A stretch of DNA of 64,000 nucleotides from Halorhabdus sp. BNX81. GTDB lineage: Archaea > Halobacteriota > Halobacteria > Halobacteriales > Haloarculaceae. Made by a program: the position numbers and the translations under genes. Of this stretch, positions 12,385-54,443 are shown in pieces. Under the pieces are notes generated by a model. That model saw only the letters and a list, made by a program, of their open reading frames with translations. It did no database searches and was not told where the DNA came from. The first letter of the stretch is position 1. Every line of letters begins with the position of its first letter. Location: assembly GCF_029229925.1 (NCBI RefSeq), contig NZ_CP107254.1, forward strand, positions 930,001 through 994,000, written 5' to 3'.

Positions 12385-14247
12385 ATGGCTACAGAGGACT
12401 CTCCCGATAAGTTCGAGGATGTGGTGAACCGCCGTAACTTCATGCGGATAGCGGGTGTGACGGGCACCGCCATGCTCGCCGGGTGTGGTGACGGCGAAAC
12501 CGACACAGATACTGGAACAGAGAACGGTGGGACCGAGAACGGTGGCACCGAAAACGGTGGGACCGAGAACGGTGGCACCGAAAACGGTGGGACCGAGAAC
12601 GGTGGCGAAACGGACGTCCAAGACGTCACGGTCAAATCCGTCGCCGCCCGTTCGATGGACCTACTCGACTGGAACGCCCAGTATGCCGGGTGGCCGAACA
12701 TCTGGGGGCGCTGGCTCGTCTACGAGCGCTATGCCCAGTACAACATGGTGGAAAACGAGTGGATCCCGCGGCTCATTGAAGACTGGTCAATCGACGGGAC
12801 GACCGTCACGATCAACATTCGGGACCCGCACAACTACGCCGACGGCGACCCGGTGACCGCCGAGGACATCAAAGTCAACACCGTGATGAACCTCGCGACC
12901 GGGGCCGCGTTCGCGGACGTCTTCGAGTCGTTCAACGAACCCGACGAAAAGACCCTCGAGATCGAGACCAACAAGGAAGTCAACCCGTCGATCCTCGAGT
13001 TCACGATCCTCTCGCAGTTGCAGCAGGCGAAGATGGCCGAGCCCTACGACGAACTCTACCAGCGCTACTGGGAGGACAACGAGGACGGCGTCTCCAGTGA
13101 CATTCAGGGTCGAGAGCCCCAGGAGCCCGACTTCGTCTCCGGGATCTTCGGACAGCAGAGCAAGGACTCGGAGCAGTACATTCTGGAGCGCAACCCCGAG
13201 CACCCTGACGCTGGCAACGTCAACTTCGAGCGCTACCGTTTCCCGACCTACTCGGGCAACCAGAGCAAGTGGGAGGCGATGATCGGCGACAGCGTGGATA
13301 CCGTGATGAGTATCTTCACCCCGTCGAACATTCGGACCCAACTCGCCGACCACTGGCAGGAGTACAACTTCCCCGGCTACTGGGGCGTCGGCTACGTCTT
13401 CAACTTCGACGAGGATGTCGCGCCGCACCTCTCGCAGCGACCGGTTCGGCAGGCCATCACGCACGCCATCAACCGGGAAGAGGTCGTCACCGCCGCGGGC
13501 GCACAGGTCAAAGAGGCTTTCCCGACCCCGGCTGCCATCTCCGCGAACGTCCAGGACGAGTGGATCGACGTGGGTGGCCAGTTCTCAGCGATGCAGGGTG
13601 GCGCAGAGAAGGCTGCCGAGATCATGCAGGACGCCGGCTACGAGAAGAACGGCAACGGGAACTGGGCCATGGACGGCGAGACCGTCACGTTCCAGGTCGT
13701 CGTCCCGAGTAGCTGGAGTGACTGGGTCACCGCGACCCAGGCTGTGGTCCCACAGCTCCAGGACGCCGGATTCGACGCGGAGATCAACCGTGTCAACAAC
13801 ATCAACACGGTCGTCTCGAATGGCGACTTCAAGATGGCGGCGCGTCCGTGGTCGCCCGGCAACGCGCGCTCCTCCTTCCCGTACTTCCCGCTGAACTGGG
13901 TCTTCGGTCGTGCCTACAACAACGCCCACAGCTACCCAGGTGGCGAGGAAGGCAACGAGATCGAGGTTCCGGCGATGGACGGCGACGGCACCATGTCGGT
14001 CAACGTCCAGCAGCGACTCAGCGACCTCTCGACGGCAACCGGCGACGAAGTCGGGGAAATCGTCGAGGAACTCGCGTGGGTTTCCCACCAGGACATCCCG
14101 TACCTGCCGGTCATCAACAAGCGAGAGCAGTCGTTCATCAGCACGCGGCGGCTGTCGGCCCCCGAGAACGATGAACCGGCGGGCAACGTCAAGTGGCCGC
14201 CGTTCTACGCCCCGCGTATCGGAAAGATGCAGTGGCAAGGCGAGTAA
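12385..14247 (+). CDS. ABC transporter substrate-binding lipoprotein, SBP_bac_5 (Dpp/Opp) family
   Basis: 620 residues. The N-terminus carries a Tat signal (NRRNFMRIAGVTG) and a lipobox ending in Cys (AMLAGC), so it is an exported lipoprotein tethered to the membrane. A flexible linker of six TENGG repeats follows, then a family-5 binding fold (WEAMIGDSVDTVMSIF, RPVRQAITHAINREEVV, ITHAINRE). Such proteins bind peptides, but in thermophiles and haloarchaea many bind beta-linked oligosaccharides. With a GH81 glucanase 8 kb away, an oligosaccharide ligand is plausible but unproven. It heads the four-gene importer operon. Confidence 0.9.
   Translation: MATEDSPDKFEDVVNRRNFMRIAGVTGTAMLAGCGDGETDTDTGTENGGTENGGTENGGTENGGTENGGTENGGETDVQDVTVKSVAARSMDLLDWNAQYAGWPNIWGRWLVYERYAQYNMVENEWIPRLIEDWSIDGTTVTINIRDPHNYADGDPVTAEDIKVNTVMNLATGAAFADVFESFNEPDEKTLEIETNKEVNPSILEFTILSQLQQAKMAEPYDELYQRYWEDNEDGVSSDIQGREPQEPDFVSGIFGQQSKDSEQYILERNPEHPDAGNVNFERYRFPTYSGNQSKWEAMIGDSVDTVMSIFTPSNIRTQLADHWQEYNFPGYWGVGYVFNFDEDVAPHLSQRPVRQAITHAINREEVVTAAGAQVKEAFPTPAAISANVQDEWIDVGGQFSAMQGGAEKAAEIMQDAGYEKNGNGNWAMDGETVTFQVVVPSSWSDWVTATQAVVPQLQDAGFDAEINRVNNINTVVSNGDFKMAARPWSPGNARSSFPYFPLNWVFGRAYNNAHSYPGGEEGNEIEVPAMDGDGTMSVNVQQRLSDLSTATGDEVGEIVEELAWVSHQDIPYLPVINKREQSFISTRRLSAPENDEPAGNVKWPPFYAPRIGKMQWQGE
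12517..12606 (+). repeat. Six 15-bp tandem repeats encoding (TENGG)6
   Basis: Six in-frame copies of a 15-bp unit encode Thr-Glu-Asn-Gly-Gly. Two codon variants alternate (acc gag aac / acc gaa aac), giving a higher-order 30-bp period. The array lies between the lipid-anchor Cys and the binding domain, where linker length can vary without loss of function; copy number is likely unstable. Confidence 0.95.
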
Positions 14248-26649: not shown

Positions 26650-27687
26650 ATGAAAGTCATTGATCGATCGGACTTCACGGCGTTGATCGAGGAGTTGATC
26701 GCATCCGATCCGCGGGAGGTAGTCGGGGTACAGGAGAGCGGCGAGCAGTACGTTTTCGATCGGCTGGAGTCGGCCGAGCAACTCGCGCTGGAACATGACC
26801 TGACGGCACTATCGCCGAAGAAGTACGTCATGCCACAGCGTGAGACGCTGTTGACCTACGAACAGACGGACGACGACTACGAGATGCGGGCCGAGGCTGA
26901 TCCGACGGGGCATATCGTCGTCGGCGTCCATCCGTACGATCTCGCAGCGATCAATCAACTCGATAAGATCTTCATCGACACGCTGCAGGACGAACCGTAC
27001 CGCCGCAAGCGCGAGCATTCCGTTCTCATCGGGGTGACAATGCAGGACGTCGCCGACACCTGCTTCGCCGCGAGCATGGGCACCGCGACGATCGACTCGG
27101 GGTATGATCTCATGGTGACTGACCTTGGCGATCGTTTCGCCGTCGACATCGGGACCTTCGAGGGTGATCAGTTGCTGGAGTCGGTTCCGACCCGGAACGC
27201 GAGCGCCGAGGAGGTAGAGCGCGTCGCGGAGATCAAAGCGGACCTCGAAGACGCCTTCGATCGGGAACTCGCCTTTCCGCCGGCTGCACTCCCTACATTG
27301 CTTGAAGCCAGCTACGACGACATGGACTTCTGGGAGGACTATGCCGAGCAGTGTCTCTCGTGTGGCACCTGTAACGTGGTCTGTCCGACCTGCTTCTGTT
27401 TCAGTGTCGATATGATCCGCGACCTTGAGGGCGACAGCGGTCGCCAGGAGCGCCGCTGGGACGGCTGTCTGCTGGAGGACTTCGCGACGGTCGCCCAGGG
27501 CGAGAACTTCCGTGAGGAGGTCGCTCAGCGCCATCGCCACCGGTTCATGCGCAAGGGGTGGTACATCTACGAGCGCTACGGCGACATCGCCTGCGTCGGG
27601 TGTGGCCGGTGTACGCGCCACTGCGTCGCCGGTGTGGCCGATCCCTGTGAGGTCTACAACGAACTCAGGGAGGGACAGCATGCGTAG
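26650..27687 (+). CDS. hydB: [NiFe] hydrogenase beta subunit, 2x[4Fe-4S] (HydB/HyhB-like)
   Basis: 345 residues. The C-terminal third holds two ferredoxin-type clusters: C235, C238, C241, C245 and C315, C318, C321, C325. The N-terminal domain matches the sulfhydrogenase beta subunit, with VGVHPYDLAAI as a conserved block. It passes electrons between the small subunit and the flavoprotein gamma subunit. First gene of a compact beta-gamma-delta-alpha operon typical of group 3b (NADP-linked, bidirectional) hydrogenases. It overlaps the next gene by 8 bp. Confidence 0.9.
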   Translation: MKVIDRSDFTALIEELIASDPREVVGVQESGEQYVFDRLESAEQLALEHDLTALSPKKYVMPQRETLLTYEQTDDDYEMRAEADPTGHIVVGVHPYDLAAINQLDKIFIDTLQDEPYRRKREHSVLIGVTMQDVADTCFAASMGTATIDSGYDLMVTDLGDRFAVDIGTFEGDQLLESVPTRNASAEEVERVAEIKADLEDAFDRELAFPPAALPTLLEASYDDMDFWEDYAEQCLSCGTCNVVCPTCFCFSVDMIRDLEGDSGRQERRWDGCLLEDFATVAQGENFREEVAQRHRHRFMRKGWYIYERYGDIACVGCGRCTRHCVAGVADPCEVYNELREGQHA

Positions 27688-28540
27688 CCAGACGCGAAAA
27701 CGCTTCGAACACGGGGAAAGCGAGTACCAGCCGATCGAGGGCCAGATCGTCTGGATCGACGACCATACTGACGACGACAAGCTGTTCGTGATCGACCTGC
27801 CCGACGGCGTTGCCCTGGATCACGAGCCCGGCCAGTTCGTCCAGCTGTTCGTCCCCGGCGTCGGCGAGGCACCGTTCTCGATCGCCTCGTCACCGACTAA
27901 TGAGGGCCCCTTCGAGTTATGCATCCGCGCGGTTGGCAACGTGACCAACGCGATCCACGACATGGAAGCGGGGGACGTTGTCGGCATCCGCGGTCCCTAC
28001 GGCCAGGGCTTCGACGTCGACGCCATCGCCGGCGAGGACCTCCTCTTTATCGCCGGCGGGATCGGCCTCGCACCGCTGCGCTCGGTGATCAACTACGCCC
28101 TGGATCGCCCCGGGGAGTTCGGCGAGTTGACGACGCTGTACGGCTGTACCGAACCCGCCGAACAGCTGTTTCCGGAGGAACTCGACTCGTGGGCTGGCTC
28201 GGACGTGATGGACTATCGCGAGACCGTCGACGAGGTGCCCGAAGATCAGGCGTGGGACGGCAACATCGGTGTCATTACCTCGCTGATCCCGCCCCTGGAG
28301 TTCGATCCCGAATCCACGGTTGCGCTAGTCTGTGGCCCGCCTGTGATGTACCGTTTTGTCATCAAGGCCCTGCGGGAGAAGGGGCTCGCCGACGACCGCA
28401 TCTACCTCTCCTTAGAGCGCAACATGCACTGTGGCCGCGGGCTCTGTGGGCATTGCCAACTCAACGAACTGTACGTCTGTCTCGACGGGCCCGTGTTTCA
28501 TTATCCGACCGTCCGCGACAAGGAGGAGGCCGAAGTATGA
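27680..28540 (+). CDS. hydG: [NiFe] hydrogenase gamma subunit, FAD/NAD(P)-binding (HydG/HyhG-like)
   Basis: 286 residues of the ferredoxin-NADP reductase fold. An FAD-binding barrel (GQFVQLF, APFSIAS) is followed by an NAD(P)-binding domain (FIAGGIGLAPLRS, ALVCGPPVM). Near the C-terminus a [2Fe-2S] site is formed by C251, C256, C259 and C267. It exchanges electrons with NAD(P)H. Overlaps both neighbours (8 bp upstream, 4 bp downstream). Confidence 0.93.
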   Translation: MRSQTRKRFEHGESEYQPIEGQIVWIDDHTDDDKLFVIDLPDGVALDHEPGQFVQLFVPGVGEAPFSIASSPTNEGPFELCIRAVGNVTNAIHDMEAGDVVGIRGPYGQGFDVDAIAGEDLLFIAGGIGLAPLRSVINYALDRPGEFGELTTLYGCTEPAEQLFPEELDSWAGSDVMDYRETVDEVPEDQAWDGNIGVITSLIPPLEFDPESTVALVCGPPVMYRFVIKALREKGLADDRIYLSLERNMHCGRGLCGHCQLNELYVCLDGPVFHYPTVRDKEEAEV

Positions 28541-29337
28541 CGGGAGAGGCGAAACCGCGTGTCGCCTTCTTCGATTTCACGGGCTGTGAGGGCGATCAGC
28601 TGCAGGTCATCAACCTCGAGGACCGACTGCTGGATCTCGTCGAGGTCGTCGAGGTCGTCAGCTTCCGCGAGGCGATGACCGAACACGGAGACGACTACGA
28701 GATCGCCTTCGTCGAGGGCGGCGTCGCGACGGCCCACGACGAGCGCCGGCTGACCGATGTCCGTGACAACGCCGATGTCGTCGTCGCGCTAGGCTCGTGT
28801 GCCGCCTTTGGGGGCATCAACGCCCTCCGCAACCACCAGGACTTCGAGACGGTCAAAGAGCGGGTGTACGGCGATGACGCCGATTCGATCTCGTCCTATC
28901 CCGTGGCTCGCCCGATCGACGACGTCATCGACGTCGACTACGAGATCCCGGGCTGTCCGATCGATCGCGAGGAGTTCGTCGGGGCGGTCACGGCCCTGGT
29001 CAACGGTGCCGAACCGTCGATCCCAAACTACCCCGTCTGCCTGGAGTGCAAGTTCGAGGAGAACACCTGCGCCTTCGAGCGCGGCGAGACCTGCCTTGGG
29101 CCGATCACTCGCGGCGGCTGTTCGGCGACCTGCGTCTCGGCGGGCACCCACTGCTGGGGCTGTCGGGGCATGGTCGACCATCCGAACGAGGACGCCTACA
29201 CGGACGTTCTCGAAGCCAACGGGCTGACGACCGAGGAAGTGATCGAGGAGTATCAACTCTACTGGGGCTGGCAACGTGATCAGGTGGCAGTCGCTGACGG
29301 CGACTCCCAGCCCGTCGCCGACGGGGGTGAGCGATGA
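28537..29337 (+). CDS. hydD: [NiFe] hydrogenase delta (small) subunit with CxxD proximal site (HydD/HyhS-like)
   Basis: 266 residues, cytoplasmic (no signal peptide). The proximal-cluster region reads TGCEGDQLQ: C17 is present but the usual second Cys of C-x2-C is Asp20 (codon gat at 28594). The other two expected proximal ligands are present in ALGSCAAFGG and PGCPID. The C-terminal half has the many cysteines for the two further clusters (VCLECKFEENTC, TCLGPITRGGC, HCWGCRG). Operon neighbours and overlap are as for the other subunits. Asp can ligate a [4Fe-4S] cluster, so this may be functional rather than a defect. Confidence 0.92.
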   Translation: MTGEAKPRVAFFDFTGCEGDQLQVINLEDRLLDLVEVVEVVSFREAMTEHGDDYEIAFVEGGVATAHDERRLTDVRDNADVVVALGSCAAFGGINALRNHQDFETVKERVYGDDADSISSYPVARPIDDVIDVDYEIPGCPIDREEFVGAVTALVNGAEPSIPNYPVCLECKFEENTCAFERGETCLGPITRGGCSATCVSAGTHCWGCRGMVDHPNEDAYTDVLEANGLTTEEVIEEYQLYWGWQRDQVAVADGDSQPVADGGER

Positions 29338-30653
29338 GTCACACGATCGACGTCGAGGGCGACCTCGTCACCCGCGTCGAGGGCCACGGCTCGATCGTGG
29401 TCAACGCCGAGGACGGCGAACTCGAAACCTGCGAGTGGCAGGTCGTCGAATCTCCGCGGTATTTCGAATCGATGCTGGTCGGTCGCTCCTTCGAGGAATC
29501 CCATCATATCACCTCGCGGATCTGTGCCATCTGCTCGGTCAGTCACACGATCGCCTCGCTGCAGGCAACTGAGGCGGCCCTCGGGATCTCCGTCTCCGAG
29601 CAGGACCGCCGGCTGCGAAAGCTTGCGCTCTACGGCGAGACGCTTCAGAGCCACGTCCTGCACCTGGGCTATCTCGCGTTGCCGGATCTGGTCGGCGAGA
29701 AATCCGTCCTGCCGCTTGCGGACACACACGAGGACGAACTGGAGACTGTGATCGATCTCCACCGGCTGGGCAACGAGTTGACCGAAGTCGTCACCGGCCG
29801 ATCGGTCCACGCTCAGCGCCTGCTCCCTGGCGGTTTCTCCCAGCTTCCCGACGAGAGCGAACTCCAAGCGCTGCTCGATCGGCTCCTCAACAGCTGGGAT
29901 GCCGTCGCGGAACTCGCCGACCTGCTGGCCGTTCTGGCCGATGAACTCCCCGCTTTCGAGCGTGAGACCGAGTATATCTCGCTCACCCATCCCGAGGAGT
30001 ACGCTTTCGCCGAGGGCACGATCTACTCATCGGATGTCGGGGAGATCCCCGTCTCCGACTATCGGGACGTCGCCAACGAGTACGTCGTCGAGCACTCGAC
30101 GGCCAAATTCGCGCGGCACGAGCGCGATTCGTATATGGTCGGCGCGCTGGCCCGCTTCAACAACAACGCCGACCAGCTTGCCCCGCGGGCCCAGGAGGTC
30201 GCCGATCGCTTCGGTCTGGACGCGCCCGCCCACAATCCGTATCTGAACAACGTCGCCCAACTTGTCGAGGTCGCCCACCTCCTCGGGGAGTCCGTCCGGC
30301 TGATCGAGGCGTTGCTGGACGATGGCCTCACCCCGCAGTCGAACTACCACGTCCCCGAGATCGACCCGACCGCGGGCCAGGGGATCGGGGCCATCGAGGT
30401 GCCCCGCGGCGTGCTCTTCCACGAGTACGCCTACGACGACACCGGCGAGGTGACCGAGGCCAACTGCGTCATCCCCACCAACCAGAACCACGGCAACATC
30501 CAACGGGACATGGAGACGCTGGTGCCGACGATCGTCGACCACCCCGAGGACGAAATCAAGCACACCCTGGAGATGCTCGTCCGGGCCTACGACCCCTGTA
30601 TCTCCTGTTCGACGCACTATCTCGACGTCGAGTTCGTCGGTCCCAACGGATGA
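29334..30653 (+). CDS. hydA: [NiFe] hydrogenase alpha (large, catalytic) subunit (HydA/HyhL-like)
   Basis: 439 residues. The active-site motifs are L1 RICAICSVSH (C64, C67) and L2 DPCISCSTH (C422, C425, H428), which together supply the four Ni-Fe cysteines. Eleven residues follow H428; these are expected to be removed by the maturation protease encoded just downstream. Together with HydB, HydG and HydD it forms a soluble NAD(P)-linked hydrogenase, able to evolve H2 to dispose of reductant or take it up. The hyp genes for Fe(CN)2CO assembly are not in the window. Confidence 0.93.
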   Translation: MSHTIDVEGDLVTRVEGHGSIVVNAEDGELETCEWQVVESPRYFESMLVGRSFEESHHITSRICAICSVSHTIASLQATEAALGISVSEQDRRLRKLALYGETLQSHVLHLGYLALPDLVGEKSVLPLADTHEDELETVIDLHRLGNELTEVVTGRSVHAQRLLPGGFSQLPDESELQALLDRLLNSWDAVAELADLLAVLADELPAFERETEYISLTHPEEYAFAEGTIYSSDVGEIPVSDYRDVANEYVVEHSTAKFARHERDSYMVGALARFNNNADQLAPRAQEVADRFGLDAPAHNPYLNNVAQLVEVAHLLGESVRLIEALLDDGLTPQSNYHVPEIDPTAGQGIGAIEVPRGVLFHEYAYDDTGEVTEANCVIPTNQNHGNIQRDMETLVPTIVDHPEDEIKHTLEMLVRAYDPCISCSTHYLDVEFVGPNG

Positions 30654-30687
30654 CAGGTATCGCGAACCCGGCTCGTGGAAATCACGC

Positions 30688-31140
30688 ATGACCGCCGATC
30701 GCGCCATCGTCGCACTCGGCAATCCCTATCGTCGGGACGACGGAATCGGGCCCGCGCTGGTTGATCGGCTCCGCGAAGAGGGACTGTCGTCGGTGGACTG
30801 TCTCGACCTCGGCGACGCGGGGTTTGAGTTAGTGCACGTCGTCGCCGATTACGACGCCGTCGTGATCGTCGACGCGGTAGATTTCGGCGGTGATCCGGGT
30901 GAGATTGTGGTGTTCGATCCGGCTGACCCTGAAACCGCAACCGGCCGAAGGGGCACCCACGGCACTGACCCGTTCGAACTCCTGGAGGTGGCATCGCGGG
31001 TGGCGGATACGAACCCGTCGATCCGCGTCGTCGGTATCCAGCCCGCAGAGACCGGCTACGGGGACGGGCTGAGTCAACCGGTTTCTGATTCCCTTCCGGC
31101 TGGGTGCCGGACACTGCGTGCGACGGTTCGATCGCTGTAG
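30688..31140 (+). CDS. [NiFe] hydrogenase maturation protease
   Basis: 150 residues of the HycI/HyaD/FrcD peptidase M52 family. It shows GNPYRRDDGIGPAL at the N-terminus, DLGDAGFELVHV, VIVDAVDFG and VVGIQPAETGYG. Acidic residues in the first and third blocks bind the Ni of the precursor. It is expected to trim the C-terminus of HydA. It starts 34 bp after hydA and closes the operon. Confidence 0.9.
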   Translation: MTADRAIVALGNPYRRDDGIGPALVDRLREEGLSSVDCLDLGDAGFELVHVVADYDAVVIVDAVDFGGDPGEIVVFDPADPETATGRRGTHGTDPFELLEVASRVADTNPSIRVVGIQPAETGYGDGLSQPVSDSLPAGCRTLRATVRSL

Positions 31141-51258: not shown

Positions 51259-52308
51259 ATGTCGAATCCGAATCCTGAAACACAAGATGACGCGATTAGT
51301 GGGTCGACAACGCGCCGGGGCTTCCTGCAATTCGCCGGTGGGGCCTCGGCGGGAACGATCATCGCTGAACACGTCGGGGAAGTCCAAGCCGCGCTTCAGC
51401 AGGTGACCGAGGGTGATCGTGAGGTGGTCTGGCTGCAGGGCCAATCCTGCAGTGGGTGTACCATCTCCATGCTTCAGAGTCCACATCCGGCCCTAGAGGA
51501 TGTCATCAGCGAGTTCCGCGTGGCAGTAACGTTCCATCCCACGCTCATGACCGAGGCGGGTGAGGCCGCCCTCGACGCATTGAGCACCGATCCGGACGTG
51601 CTGATCGTCGAGGGGGCGATTCCCGCCGGGATGCCCCAGGCCGCGACCGTCGGTCACACTGACGAGGGCCACCGCAAACCTGTCCTCGATTGGGTCGAAG
51701 AATTGGCCCCGCGGGCCGAGTATGTGATCGCCGTCGGCAACTGCGCTGCCCGTGGCGGCTGGCTAGCGGCCGGCCGCGGACGGGAGCTGTACGACAGGGA
51801 GGACAACGTGACGGATGCCCACGGGCTTCAGTTCCAGGGCCGCAACCGGGAGGGCATCCTCGATCCGGAATTCACTGCCGGAGCCGGGTTGCCGGTCTTG
51901 AACCTGCAGGGGTGCCCACCCAACCCAGACAACATTCTGTTGACCCTAACGATGATTCTTACCGGGAATCCGCCGGAACTCGACGAGTACAACCGGCCGG
52001 TGACGTTCTATGAATCGGACGGTGGCCGTCGACGGCACGGGCGTTCTAACCGCCAGGAGTCAGCCAGCAACGACAGCCGCCCACGGCATGGGCGGTCTGG
52101 ACGCCAGGCGTCAGCCAGTAACGACAGCCGCCCACGGCATGGGCGGTCTGGACGCCAGGCGTCAGCCAGTAACGACAGCCGCCCACGGCATGGGCGGTCT
52201 GGACGCCAGGCGTCAGCCGGCCAGGGAACCCGTCGACGATGCGTGCATTCTGGACGTCAGGAGTCGGCTGAGCGGACAGACAACACCGACGTCACCGAAA
52301 CGAGGTGA
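51259..52308 (+). CDS. hyaA: Tat-exported [NiFe] hydrogenase small subunit lacking the C-terminal FeS domain, with a 17-residue repeat tail
   Basis: 349 residues. The Tat signal TTRRGFLQFAGG has RR at 19-20, so the partner large subunit is carried across the membrane with it. The N-terminal flavodoxin-like domain is complete: C64 and C67 (GQSCSGCTIS), C162 (VGNCAARGG) and C219 (LQGCPPNPD) give the proximal cluster. The protein then reaches the group 1 block PPELDEYNRPVTFY at about 238-251, after which the usual Cys/His-rich domain of medial and distal clusters should follow. Instead, residues 252-349 are a basic Arg/Ser/Gly repeat tail. The stop lies 6 bp before the large-subunit gene. It may be a functional shortened type or a decayed gene. 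Confidence 0.85.
   Translation: MSNPNPETQDDAISGSTTRRGFLQFAGGASAGTIIAEHVGEVQAALQQVTEGDREVVWLQGQSCSGCTISMLQSPHPALEDVISEFRVAVTFHPTLMTEAGEAALDALSTDPDVLIVEGAIPAGMPQAATVGHTDEGHRKPVLDWVEELAPRAEYVIAVGNCAARGGWLAAGRGRELYDREDNVTDAHGLQFQGRNREGILDPEFTAGAGLPVLNLQGCPPNPDNILLTLTMILTGNPPELDEYNRPVTFYESDGGRRRHGRSNRQESASNDSRPRHGRSGRQASASNDSRPRHGRSGRQASASNDSRPRHGRSGRQASAGQGTRRRCVHSGRQESAERTDNTDVTETR
52018..52272 (+). repeat. Five 51-bp tandem units in the hydrogenase small-subunit gene
   Basis: Units at 52018, 52069, 52120, 52171 and 52222. The three central units are nearly identical and encode NDSRPRHGRSGRQASAS; the outer two are diverged but keep length and frame. The period is exactly 17 codons. The encoded Arg-rich tail is unusual in an acidic haloarchaeal proteome. 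High identity of the central units suggests recent slippage or recombination. Confidence 0.95.
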
Positions 52309-52314
52309 CCTCAT

Positions 52315-53934
52315 ATGCCGGAGATAACGATCAATCCGACGACGCGTATCGAGGGCCATCACGCGACGACACTCGATGTCGAGGACGGCGTCGTACAGGA
52401 CGCAAAGAGCCACATGGAAATGTTCCGTGGCATCGAGTCGGTCACGCTCGAACGCCCCCCGTCAGCTGTCCCGGATATCACGGGAAAGGTCTGTGGTGTC
52501 TGTTTTACCTGTCACAGACTGACCTCCTCGCGGGCGGTTGAAGACGCCGCGATGGCGGCCGGCGTCTTCGACGGCGTCCCGCGGAACGCCCATCTCCTCC
52601 GGGATGCGATGGAGGGGATCTTCTACTTGTGGAACCATACGATCCATCTCTACGCGCTGGCCGGGCCGGACTACAGCGATGCCGTCGCAGGAACTGGCCT
52701 GACGCGCCTCGATCCCATGGAAGGCGAGGGCTATCTGGAAGCGATGGACCACCAGCGCACGCTGATGCAGGCTTTCGCCGAGTTCGGCGGTCGCGTTCCG
52801 AATTCGCTGACCTACGTACCGGGGGGGATGTCCGCCAATCCCGACGCCTCGACCATTCAGTCGGTCAAAGACCACGTCGCGTCGGTCAGCGAGTGGATCG
52901 GCCCGACTGACGCTGTCCCCGAGGTGATCGAGAACGTCCGAAACGGGGAGTTCGAGCCATCGGTCGGTGCTGGACTCCATGACCTCGTCGGGCTGTTGTA
53001 TGCTGCCGCCGAGGAAGGTGCGGCGGAGTACGGCGTCGGTCCCCGTCGGTACTATTCAAACGGCGTGTTCCGCCTCCCCGAACGTGAAGAGTTCCTCTTC
53101 AAGCGCGGGATCTACCGCGACGGGTCGATCGAACCACAGACCAAAGCGGAGATCCTCGACGCGATCACCGAAAGTACGGCCCACTCGTGGTACACCGATG
53201 ATTCGGCTGGCCGTCCCGCTTCGGCCAAACCGCCCGAACCCGCCCCCGGGAAGGACGGGGCCTATTCGTGGGGAAAAGCACCGCGCTACGAGGGCCAGCC
53301 CATGGAAGTCGGTCCCCTGGCACGGCTCGTGATCTCGGATATCGATCCCTTCGACTTGCGGGCGGAGTTGGGCGGGGCGAGCGCGGCGAGTAATACGCTC
53401 AACCGTCTTATCGCCCGTACCCAGGAGATCCTGCTCGTTCGGGACAACGTTCTGGGACTGCTTGATGCGATCGAGCCCGGCGACCCCTTCACAGCCGAGT
53501 GGGACGACGACTTTGACGGGCAGGGCGTCAGTCTGTTCGAAGCCTCCCGGGGCGCACTCTCACACTGGGCCGATGTCCGGAACGGACAGATCAATCAGTA
53601 CCAGATCGTCACGCCGACGCTGTGGAACATGGGGCCTCGCGATAGCGACGATACCCCAGGGCCGCTCGAATCGGCGCTGGTCGGCATGGAGGTCGAGGAC
53701 GTGGAGACGCCCCTGGACGTGATGCGGACGATCCGATCGATGGACCCGTGTCTGGCCTGCTCCGTCCACCTTCAGACGCCGACCGGCGAGTACGAGACAG
53801 TCCTCGAACCGGCTACGCCGGGGGCCGTCGGCAAGGAGACAACCAACACGTCTGAGGACACCGACGTGATGGATAAATCCGCGAAATCGGACGCGACGAA
53901 CGAATCTGGTGGCAAAATCACGGACGACCGATGA
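52315..53934 (+). CDS. hyaB: [NiFe] hydrogenase large subunit, group 1-like
   Basis: 539 residues. Group 1 features are the N-terminal INPTTRIEGHH, the RGIESV block, L1 KVCGVCFTCH (C60, C63, H67; the usual Arg before it is Lys58) and L2 DPCLACSVH (C479, C482, H485). A tail of 54 residues follows H485, rich in Ser, Thr, Asp and Glu, far longer than the usual cleaved peptide of about 15. An SD-like gaggtga precedes the ATG. Paired with the Tat small subunit, it should face outside and oxidise H2. No cytochrome b subunit is encoded in the window. Confidence 0.92.
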   Translation: MPEITINPTTRIEGHHATTLDVEDGVVQDAKSHMEMFRGIESVTLERPPSAVPDITGKVCGVCFTCHRLTSSRAVEDAAMAAGVFDGVPRNAHLLRDAMEGIFYLWNHTIHLYALAGPDYSDAVAGTGLTRLDPMEGEGYLEAMDHQRTLMQAFAEFGGRVPNSLTYVPGGMSANPDASTIQSVKDHVASVSEWIGPTDAVPEVIENVRNGEFEPSVGAGLHDLVGLLYAAAEEGAAEYGVGPRRYYSNGVFRLPEREEFLFKRGIYRDGSIEPQTKAEILDAITESTAHSWYTDDSAGRPASAKPPEPAPGKDGAYSWGKAPRYEGQPMEVGPLARLVISDIDPFDLRAELGGASAASNTLNRLIARTQEILLVRDNVLGLLDAIEPGDPFTAEWDDDFDGQGVSLFEASRGALSHWADVRNGQINQYQIVTPTLWNMGPRDSDDTPGPLESALVGMEVEDVETPLDVMRTIRSMDPCLACSVHLQTPTGEYETVLEPATPGAVGKETTNTSEDTDVMDKSAKSDATNESGGKITDDR

Positions 53935-54443
53935 CGTTGTTCGATGAGGACGAGTCGGACGTGGCGGTCGTCGGCGTCGGTAACGCGATCATGGGCGATG
54001 ACGGTGTCGGCGGGCGAGTGATCCGCGCACTACAGGACCGCGCCGACGAACTGACTGATGGAGTTCGCCTGTCTGACGCTGGCACGACTGGCATGCTCGC
54101 CCTTGAAGCGATGAGCGGCTGTGAGCGGGCGATCGTGGTCGACGCTATCAGCGCCGATGGCGAACCGGGCTCGATCTATCGTTATGAGCTCACAGACGGA
54201 AGTTTCGACGGCCAAGCCCCGCCGATTTCGATGCACGATGTTTCCTTCTGTGAGGGCCTCTCAGCCGGCCGGAACGCATACGAATTGCCCGCGGAGATCC
54301 TGGTGATCGGCGTCGAGCCTGCACGCATCGAGCTATCCGTCGAATTGAGCGAGACGGTCGCCGAACGGGTGCCCGAAATCGTCGACCTGATCCTTCGGGA
54401 ACTGGACCGCGAGCCAGTCGACGAATCGGTGGTCCGGGCGTGA
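53931..54443 (+). CDS. hyaD: [NiFe] hydrogenase maturation protease, HyaD-like
   Basis: 170 residues, peptidase M52. Motifs: GVGNAIMGDDGVGGRV, DAGTTGML, AIVVDAISADGEPGS, SMHDVSFCEGL and VIGVEPARIEL. The start overlaps the large-subunit stop by 4 bp (ATGA), so it serves that subunit. It is a distinct sequence from the protease of the cytoplasmic hydrogenase, so each enzyme has its own. Last gene of the operon; the convergent permease gene ends 35 bp away. Confidence 0.92.
   Translation: MTLFDEDESDVAVVGVGNAIMGDDGVGGRVIRALQDRADELTDGVRLSDAGTTGMLALEAMSGCERAIVVDAISADGEPGSIYRYELTDGSFDGQAPPISMHDVSFCEGLSAGRNAYELPAEILVIGVEPARIELSVELSETVAERVPEIVDLILRELDREPVDESVVRA

Follow-up and report, generated by a model that had tools for sequence, protein, structure and literature searches.

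Loss of the C-terminal Fe-S domain beneath a basic tandem-repeat tail in a haloarchaeal [NiFe] hydrogenase small subunit

In descriptions of exported Group 1 [NiFe] hydrogenases, three Fe-S clusters form a chain that links the active site with the surface. Small subunits that carry the proximal cluster alone can also function, as in HoxY and EchC, which belong to cytoplasmic or membrane [NiFe] enzymes and have electron-carrying partner subunits. Among haloarchaea, the HydABC enzyme of Natrarchaeobaculum sulfurireducens was assigned to Group 1a by its authors, according to the accessible text of that study (PMC6176080). The closest working parallel that we found for the locus described here appears to be FohAB, the MIC hydrogenase of corrosive methanogens, which is an exported two-subunit [NiFe] enzyme with its own protease (PMC12667266). 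In the accessible sections of that account, the MIC core names no cytochrome b, FohB binds three Fe-S clusters, and FohAB comes with TatAC and FohE. The same sections describe a replaced small-subunit C-terminus, proposed to be N-glycosylated, that a 37-bp duplication alters in some strains (PMC12667266). A literature search with little coverage of subscription journals returned no natural small subunit without the medial and distal clusters.

The window analysed here, a 64,000-nucleotide stretch of the Halorhabdus sp. BNX81 genome, holds a hydABD operon on the forward strand. The first gene, hydA (51259..52308, +), encodes by its open reading frame, Pfam matches and homology a predicted exported [NiFe] hydrogenase small subunit of 349 aa that is without the C-terminal Fe-S domain. 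HydA carries a PF01058 (Oxidored_q6) match at residues 64-232 (E 4e-27), and its residues 1-252 are 60% identical to N. sulfurireducens HydA. Export is suggested by a Tat-like N-terminus, comparable to that of N. sulfurireducens HydA, with the twin-arginine motif RRGFLQF (residues 19-25; 51313..51333, +) and a hydrophobic stretch, and R19, R20, F22 and L23 are invariant among the HydA sequences of an 8-row alignment. The Pfam TAT model gave no match on this protein and a weak match, below the cut-off, on the N. sulfurireducens homologue. The N-terminal domain (51448..51954, +), delimited by Pfam, alignment and model, contains the four predicted proximal-cluster cysteines C64, C67, C162 and C219 expected of a Group 1 small subunit. 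BNX81 and the relative G005 discussed below both retain them, as do 45 or 46 of the 46 other aligned rows. The second gene, hydB (52315..53934, +), appears to supply the paired catalytic large subunit (PF00374, E 1.4e-84; about 66% identical to that of N. sulfurireducens), with the motifs RIEGH, CGVCFTCH and DPCLACSVH intact. The third, hydD (53931..54443, +), encodes a predicted hydrogenase maturation protease (PF01750, E 6.2e-22; TIGR00072 above cut-off), and a maturation protease is likewise part of the N. sulfurireducens system.

Similarity to full-length homologues stops at HydA residue 252. In N. sulfurireducens HydA, the domain that holds the medial and distal clusters (PF14720) spans residues 257-334, and its start at residue 257 lies one residue before the equivalent of residue 252 in BNX81. 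The initial annotation had proposed that a repeat sits exactly where the Fe-S domain should begin, and this placement is correct. Pfam found no PF14720 in the HydA protein, and the domain is absent from both the BNX81 and the G005 genome (0/2) at E <= 0.1, which led us to reject a split gene with the domain encoded elsewhere. All seven medial and distal ligand positions (7/7) are absent in BNX81. The same sites are kept almost without exception in the 46 other rows, six of them in 46/46 and the seventh in 45/46. By these results, BNX81 HydA is without the C-terminal domain for the medial and distal clusters that a Group 1 small subunit is expected to have. A tail that is simply the frameshifted C-terminal domain was also rejected, as the five remaining frames of the BNX81 tail and of the G005 tail all fail to beat shuffled sequences convincingly; the best of them, BNX81 frame 1, scores 40, a value reached by 11/300 shuffles. 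One further row (L077) was picked up by a pattern test as a third sequence without C-domain ligands, but its ligands are present and just one flanking residue is changed. The ligand loss also sets this enzyme apart from FohAB as described in the accessible text. The two are alike, by description only, as exported two-subunit [NiFe] hydrogenases with their own protease and a replaced, duplication-bearing small-subunit C-terminus. FohB, however, keeps three clusters, so that BNX81 HydAB would not be a member of the FohAB group (PMC12667266). In addition, the duplication is frameshifting in FohAB and in frame in BNX81, and the BNX81 operon is flanked by ABC transporter genes, with TatAC and FohE not adjacent.

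The history of the loss can be read from a relative. Among six other Halorhabdus genomes, hydA is present in one, G005, and its HydA is 82% identical to that of BNX81 over residues 1-250 and is without the array. The G005 tail of 79 residues aligns to functional C-terminal domains with a Smith-Waterman score of 91 (shuffled mean 32.7, sd 5.1; 0/300 shuffles as high), and does so in frame only, the other frames showing no such homology. Six of its seven ligands are lost or substituted (H to Q, C to P, C to R, C to R, and two by truncation). The G005 tail, judged by these alignments, is a recognisable, non-repetitive C-terminal domain in decay. Ligands were compared in an alignment of 48 rows (BNX81, G005 and 46 others), of which 40 different ones entered the tree; weak or locus-less matches (G054, G106, G345, G258, G306, G312 and G390) and the weak second matches of G045, G062 and G182 were left out. 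In this tree, BNX81 and G005 form one clade (100/100) inside the full-length haloarchaeal HydA clade, with deeper forks partly open, which places BNX81 HydA by descent within the Group 1 small-subunit family. The simplest reading of the tree is that the domain losses in the two species are one ancestral loss. Divergence supports an early date: over 47 codons, the G005 tail differs from five functional domains by a dN of 0.51-0.56, compared with 0.04-0.12 among those domains. The dS between BNX81 and G005 is 0.54 for the HydA body and 0.40 for HydB, or 0.20-0.27 per lineage. Because the excess dN of about 0.45 in the G005 tail exceeds the 0.20-0.27 of neutral change available to each lineage, decay would have begun before the species split, a timing that rests on decay at the neutral rate and on dS measuring that rate. 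Because G005 is also without a working domain and yet has no array, the domain would have been lost first and the array would have grown later.

The rest of the enzyme does not appear to have decayed with the domain. Between BNX81 and G005, dN/dS is 0.18 for the HydA body, 0.18 for HydB and 0.25 for HydD, compared with 0.08-0.23 for five control genes; as averages over the time since the two species separated, these values would overlook a function lost very recently. At core columns that are invariant elsewhere, 3/48 are changed in the BNX81/G005 pair, compared with 0-4 in ten comparison sets. The HydA core and HydB look to be under ordinary purifying selection, which is the surprising part. 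A dying enzyme, stripped of its wire, its cytochrome and the hyp cluster next to it, with a tail that marks a gene becoming a pseudogene, would accommodate an operon reduced to hydABD in both species, the absence of hydA from five of the six other genus genomes searched, and the transposase-like ORF adjoining the G005 genes. We regard it as unlikely, given that the HydA core, HydB and HydD frames are intact in both species, the catalytic motifs are preserved, dN/dS lies within or near the range of the controls, and the number of altered core columns falls within the range of the comparison sets.

Synonymous divergence bears on how the two species came to hold the operon. The hyd genes differ by a dS of 0.40-0.54, compared with 0.40-0.55 in the five control genes of both genomes, and this equality fits vertical descent despite the different neighbourhoods of the operon. 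In BNX81, ABC-2 transporter genes flank it on both sides, and in G005 its neighbours are a TYW1-like gene on one side and, on the other, nreA together with a transposase-like ORF (PF01609, E 1e-5; L034, 10967-11314) that stands beside the hydABD genes. No hydC cytochrome b gene is present in the BNX81 operon, and neither the BNX81 nor the G005 genome has a PF01292 match over the cut-off, so that the hydrogenase cytochrome b is absent from both at the threshold used. BNX81 would accordingly lack the HydC subunit of a respiratory HydABC enzyme. A contig search gave 18 other hydA loci, none from the genus itself, and hydC was found at 12 of these and not found nearby at the remaining six. Four of those six (G118, G066, G067 and G167) have, in the protein alignment, a hydrophobic C-terminal HydA stretch that we read as a membrane helix. 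Also unlike N. sulfurireducens, BNX81 has no hyp genes adjacent to hydABD; they lie at another genome site. Together with a second hydrogenase operon, these hyp genes show that a predicted maturation machinery exists in the genome. As evidence for maturation of HydAB itself, we rejected them: HypD occurs in 9/9 genomes tested, including all seven genus genomes and thus members without hydA, and other [NiFe] large-subunit genes are likewise present in all seven. The second operon (window 26650-31140, +) encodes, by appearance, a small and a large hydrogenase subunit (the large one at 29334-30653) together with an Fe-S protein, a reductase of the FAD/NAD type and a maturation protease. It has the appearance of a cytoplasmic-type hydrogenase and is presumably Group 3b.

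In place of the domain, the hydA frame of BNX81 contains five in-frame 51-bp units in the register 52018-52272. Tandem Repeats Finder reports 52025-52218 with period 51, 3.8 copies, 93% matches and a score of 325. By unit comparison, all on the + strand, unit 2 (52069..52119) serves as reference and unit 3 (52120..52170) is identical to it. Unit 4 (52171..52221) has two differences, and the outer units 1 (52018..52068; 13/51 bases different) and 5 (52222..52272; 21 differences) are degenerate, which bears out the earlier description of five in-frame units, three of them nearly identical. Fresh inner copies between worn outer ones are the pattern expected from repeated slippage or unequal recombination. 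A search for the unit elsewhere in the genome, suggested by the initial annotation, found the array once only: in the 2.83-Mb genome it was its own sole match at E <= 0.001. The best non-self match in a search at E <= 1 had an E of 0.008, which we read as background. Plasmid and phage collections gave no match either, and a dispersed repeat was rejected on these grounds. Rickettsia palindromic elements, which are inserted in frame in genes, offer a comparison, as the BNX81 array also lies in frame within a gene and contains inverted repeats, but it has no dispersed copies. That the array length is an assembly error is the least credible of the explanations considered. Two units match at all 51 bases and a third is two bases off, but the genome is a single contig, 99.93% complete, units 1, 4 and 5 are distinct, and the domain loss is independent of copy number. 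A role of the array as DNA or RNA, for example through hairpins that tune the hydA/hydB expression ratio, is very improbable. Two inverted repeats lie within units 2-4, and folding is more stable than expected for unit 2 (z -2.40) and the whole array (z -2.23), but units 1 and 5 fold unremarkably (z 0.72 and -0.32), as does the G005 tail (z -0.75), and the genome holds no further array copies.

The replacement tail as a whole (residues 253-349; 52015..52305, +) is, by composition, comparison and model, basic, predicted to be disordered and without C-domain homology. It has 23 R/K and 10 D/E and a pI of 12.0, compared with 14 R/K, 36 D/E and a pI of 4.4 for the HydA body, in agreement with the earlier claim of a basic segment. 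A first AlphaFold2 model was poor (mean pLDDT 42.5); the second (mean 62.8), taken solely for the distinction between folded body and disordered tail, gives a folded body with an N-terminal domain that reaches a pLDDT of 94, values of about 28-49 from residue 251, and no secondary structure from residue 252. The charge of the tail is close to what its own bases predict, with a net charge per residue of 0.13 compared with 0.11 +- 0.05 in base shuffles; the mildly basic G005 tail (pI 9.5) has 0.04 compared with 0.11 +- 0.05. Across codon positions 1, 2 and 3, the GC content of the tail is 0.70/0.71/0.65, compared with 0.69/0.47/0.74 for the body, and the tail signature is not coding-like. Arg content is about 2 sd higher than expected (0.24 compared with 0.16 +- 0.04), which counts against an unconstrained tail. 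The stop-free frames of the two tails are unremarkable (P 0.28 and 0.19), so that the openness of the frame is weak evidence. On balance, the basic tail is probably ordinary rather than adaptive.

The two tails share little. Neither as protein (217/2000 shuffles reach the score) nor as DNA, the last 13 bases excepted (213/500 codon shuffles), do they align above chance, and homology between them as wholes was rejected at the protein figure. When the comparison is anchored at the tail start, the first 12 residues give a slight hint of similarity, with 77/3000 shuffles as good, but at 16-24 residues 276 to 751/3000 are as good, and given this fading we do not claim that the array originated from the start of the old domain. 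One 7-residue motif common to both, RHGRSGR, differs at 6 synonymous and 0 non-synonymous sites, a pattern that might point to a basic motif maintained by purifying selection and that would carry weight if the sequence around it could be aligned. We discount it because its third positions differ at 6/7 compared with 77/250 in the body and because the similarity of the whole tails is not significant. By contrast with the non-alignable remainder, the last 13 bases of hydA (52296..52308, +; CGAAACGAGGTGA) are identical in BNX81 and G005; they comprise the stop codon and a stretch that probably serves as the ribosome-binding site of hydB.

Could the tail nonetheless be an adaptation, a possibly N-glycosylated basic anchor to the acidic cell wall or a dock for an acidic electron carrier? 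Three NDS sequons, one per amplified unit, and the shared RHGRSGR would suit such a role, and the accessible text on the exported FohAB of methanogens proposes that a variable hydrophilic small-subunit C-terminus places that enzyme (PMC12667266). The G005 tail, however, has 0 sequons, at least 3 arise in 115/2000 shuffles of the BNX81 tail even when their origin as copies of one is ignored, the charge is what base composition predicts, GC content across codon positions does not resemble that of coding sequence, and no alignment of the two tails stands above chance. As copies of a single sequon, the three might keep the anchoring idea alive with little support, and we consider an adaptive tail distinctly improbable. 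Two of the roles offered by the initial annotation, binding of the S-layer and docking of an acidic partner, find no support, as the charge is as predicted, the G005 tail has a pI of only 9.5 and the tails are not detectably similar. Its third suggestion, replacement of the domain by a slippage array, agrees best of the three with the data in mechanism but not in order, as the domain was apparently lost before the array grew. The array is best read as the product of recent expansion by slippage within an unconstrained tail.

The finding is the domain loss beneath the tail, rather than the basic tail itself. That a second species shares this loss, with purifying selection still acting on the core, went unremarked in the initial annotation. 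Our preferred explanation, to which we assign a probability of about 0.6, is that this hydrogenase lost its electron wire before the species split, retains the proximal cluster alone and remains subject to purifying selection, with the array a later product of slippage. The C-terminal domain would have been lost in the common ancestor, while purifying selection continued to act on the HydA N-terminal domain, with its proximal cluster, and on HydB. A decayed stretch without ligands would be what is left of the domain in G005. In BNX81, an unconstrained stretch would have taken its place, and within that stretch a single 51-bp unit would recently have been copied in tandem, in steps of 17 codons, through slippage or unequal recombination. 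The abundance of Arg in the tail would stem mainly from GC-rich DNA that, once free of selection for an acidic protein, encodes Arg, Gly and Ser. Overlap between the hydA stop and the probable ribosome-binding site of hydB may be what holds the tail in frame. The tail would presumably be translated and exported, and the array would have no function of its own. The enzyme would work with the proximal cluster alone, now nearer the surface, where electrons would leave or enter via a soluble or surface partner. HoxY and EchC differ in this respect, as BNX81 HydA has no electron-carrying partner subunit encoded adjacent to it and bears a Tat-like leader. A bolder version, which we consider quite unlikely, is a minimal exported [NiFe] hydrogenase of active site and proximal cluster only. 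The cluster, laid bare by the missing C-domain, would exchange electrons directly with an extracellular partner, soluble or mineral, and a fast-evolving tail bearing N-glycosylation sequons would hold the enzyme at the wall.

If the enzyme works, it would provide a natural test of how long a wire is needed and of which acceptors can serve an exposed proximal cluster. Two haloarchaea appear to keep a selected catalytic core after discarding two of three clusters. The locus also suggests that a striking basic module can arise through domain decay in the GC-rich DNA of an organism with an acidic proteome.

Other HydA C-termini vary as well. The HydA of G060 (L047, 7671-8720) keeps its Fe-S domain in an open frame of only 350 aa that ends right after the domain, and no hydC was found near this locus. 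In one haloarchaeal group (L041, L042, L044, L080, L081, L082 and L083), the membrane-helix region is followed by a Cys-rich end, for example DGCGCGSGCDCKSDE, which is possibly metal-binding. In G245, a short run of acidic residues is directly repeated at the end of HydA (L077, about 2575-2640; EEMKEEATAEMKEEATAE), a small duplication that keeps the frame and lies at the same gene end as the BNX81 array. Elsewhere in the window, another in-register tandem repeat lies at 12520-12606, with periods of 15 and 30, the unit GAGAACGGTGGGACC and 100% matches at period 30.
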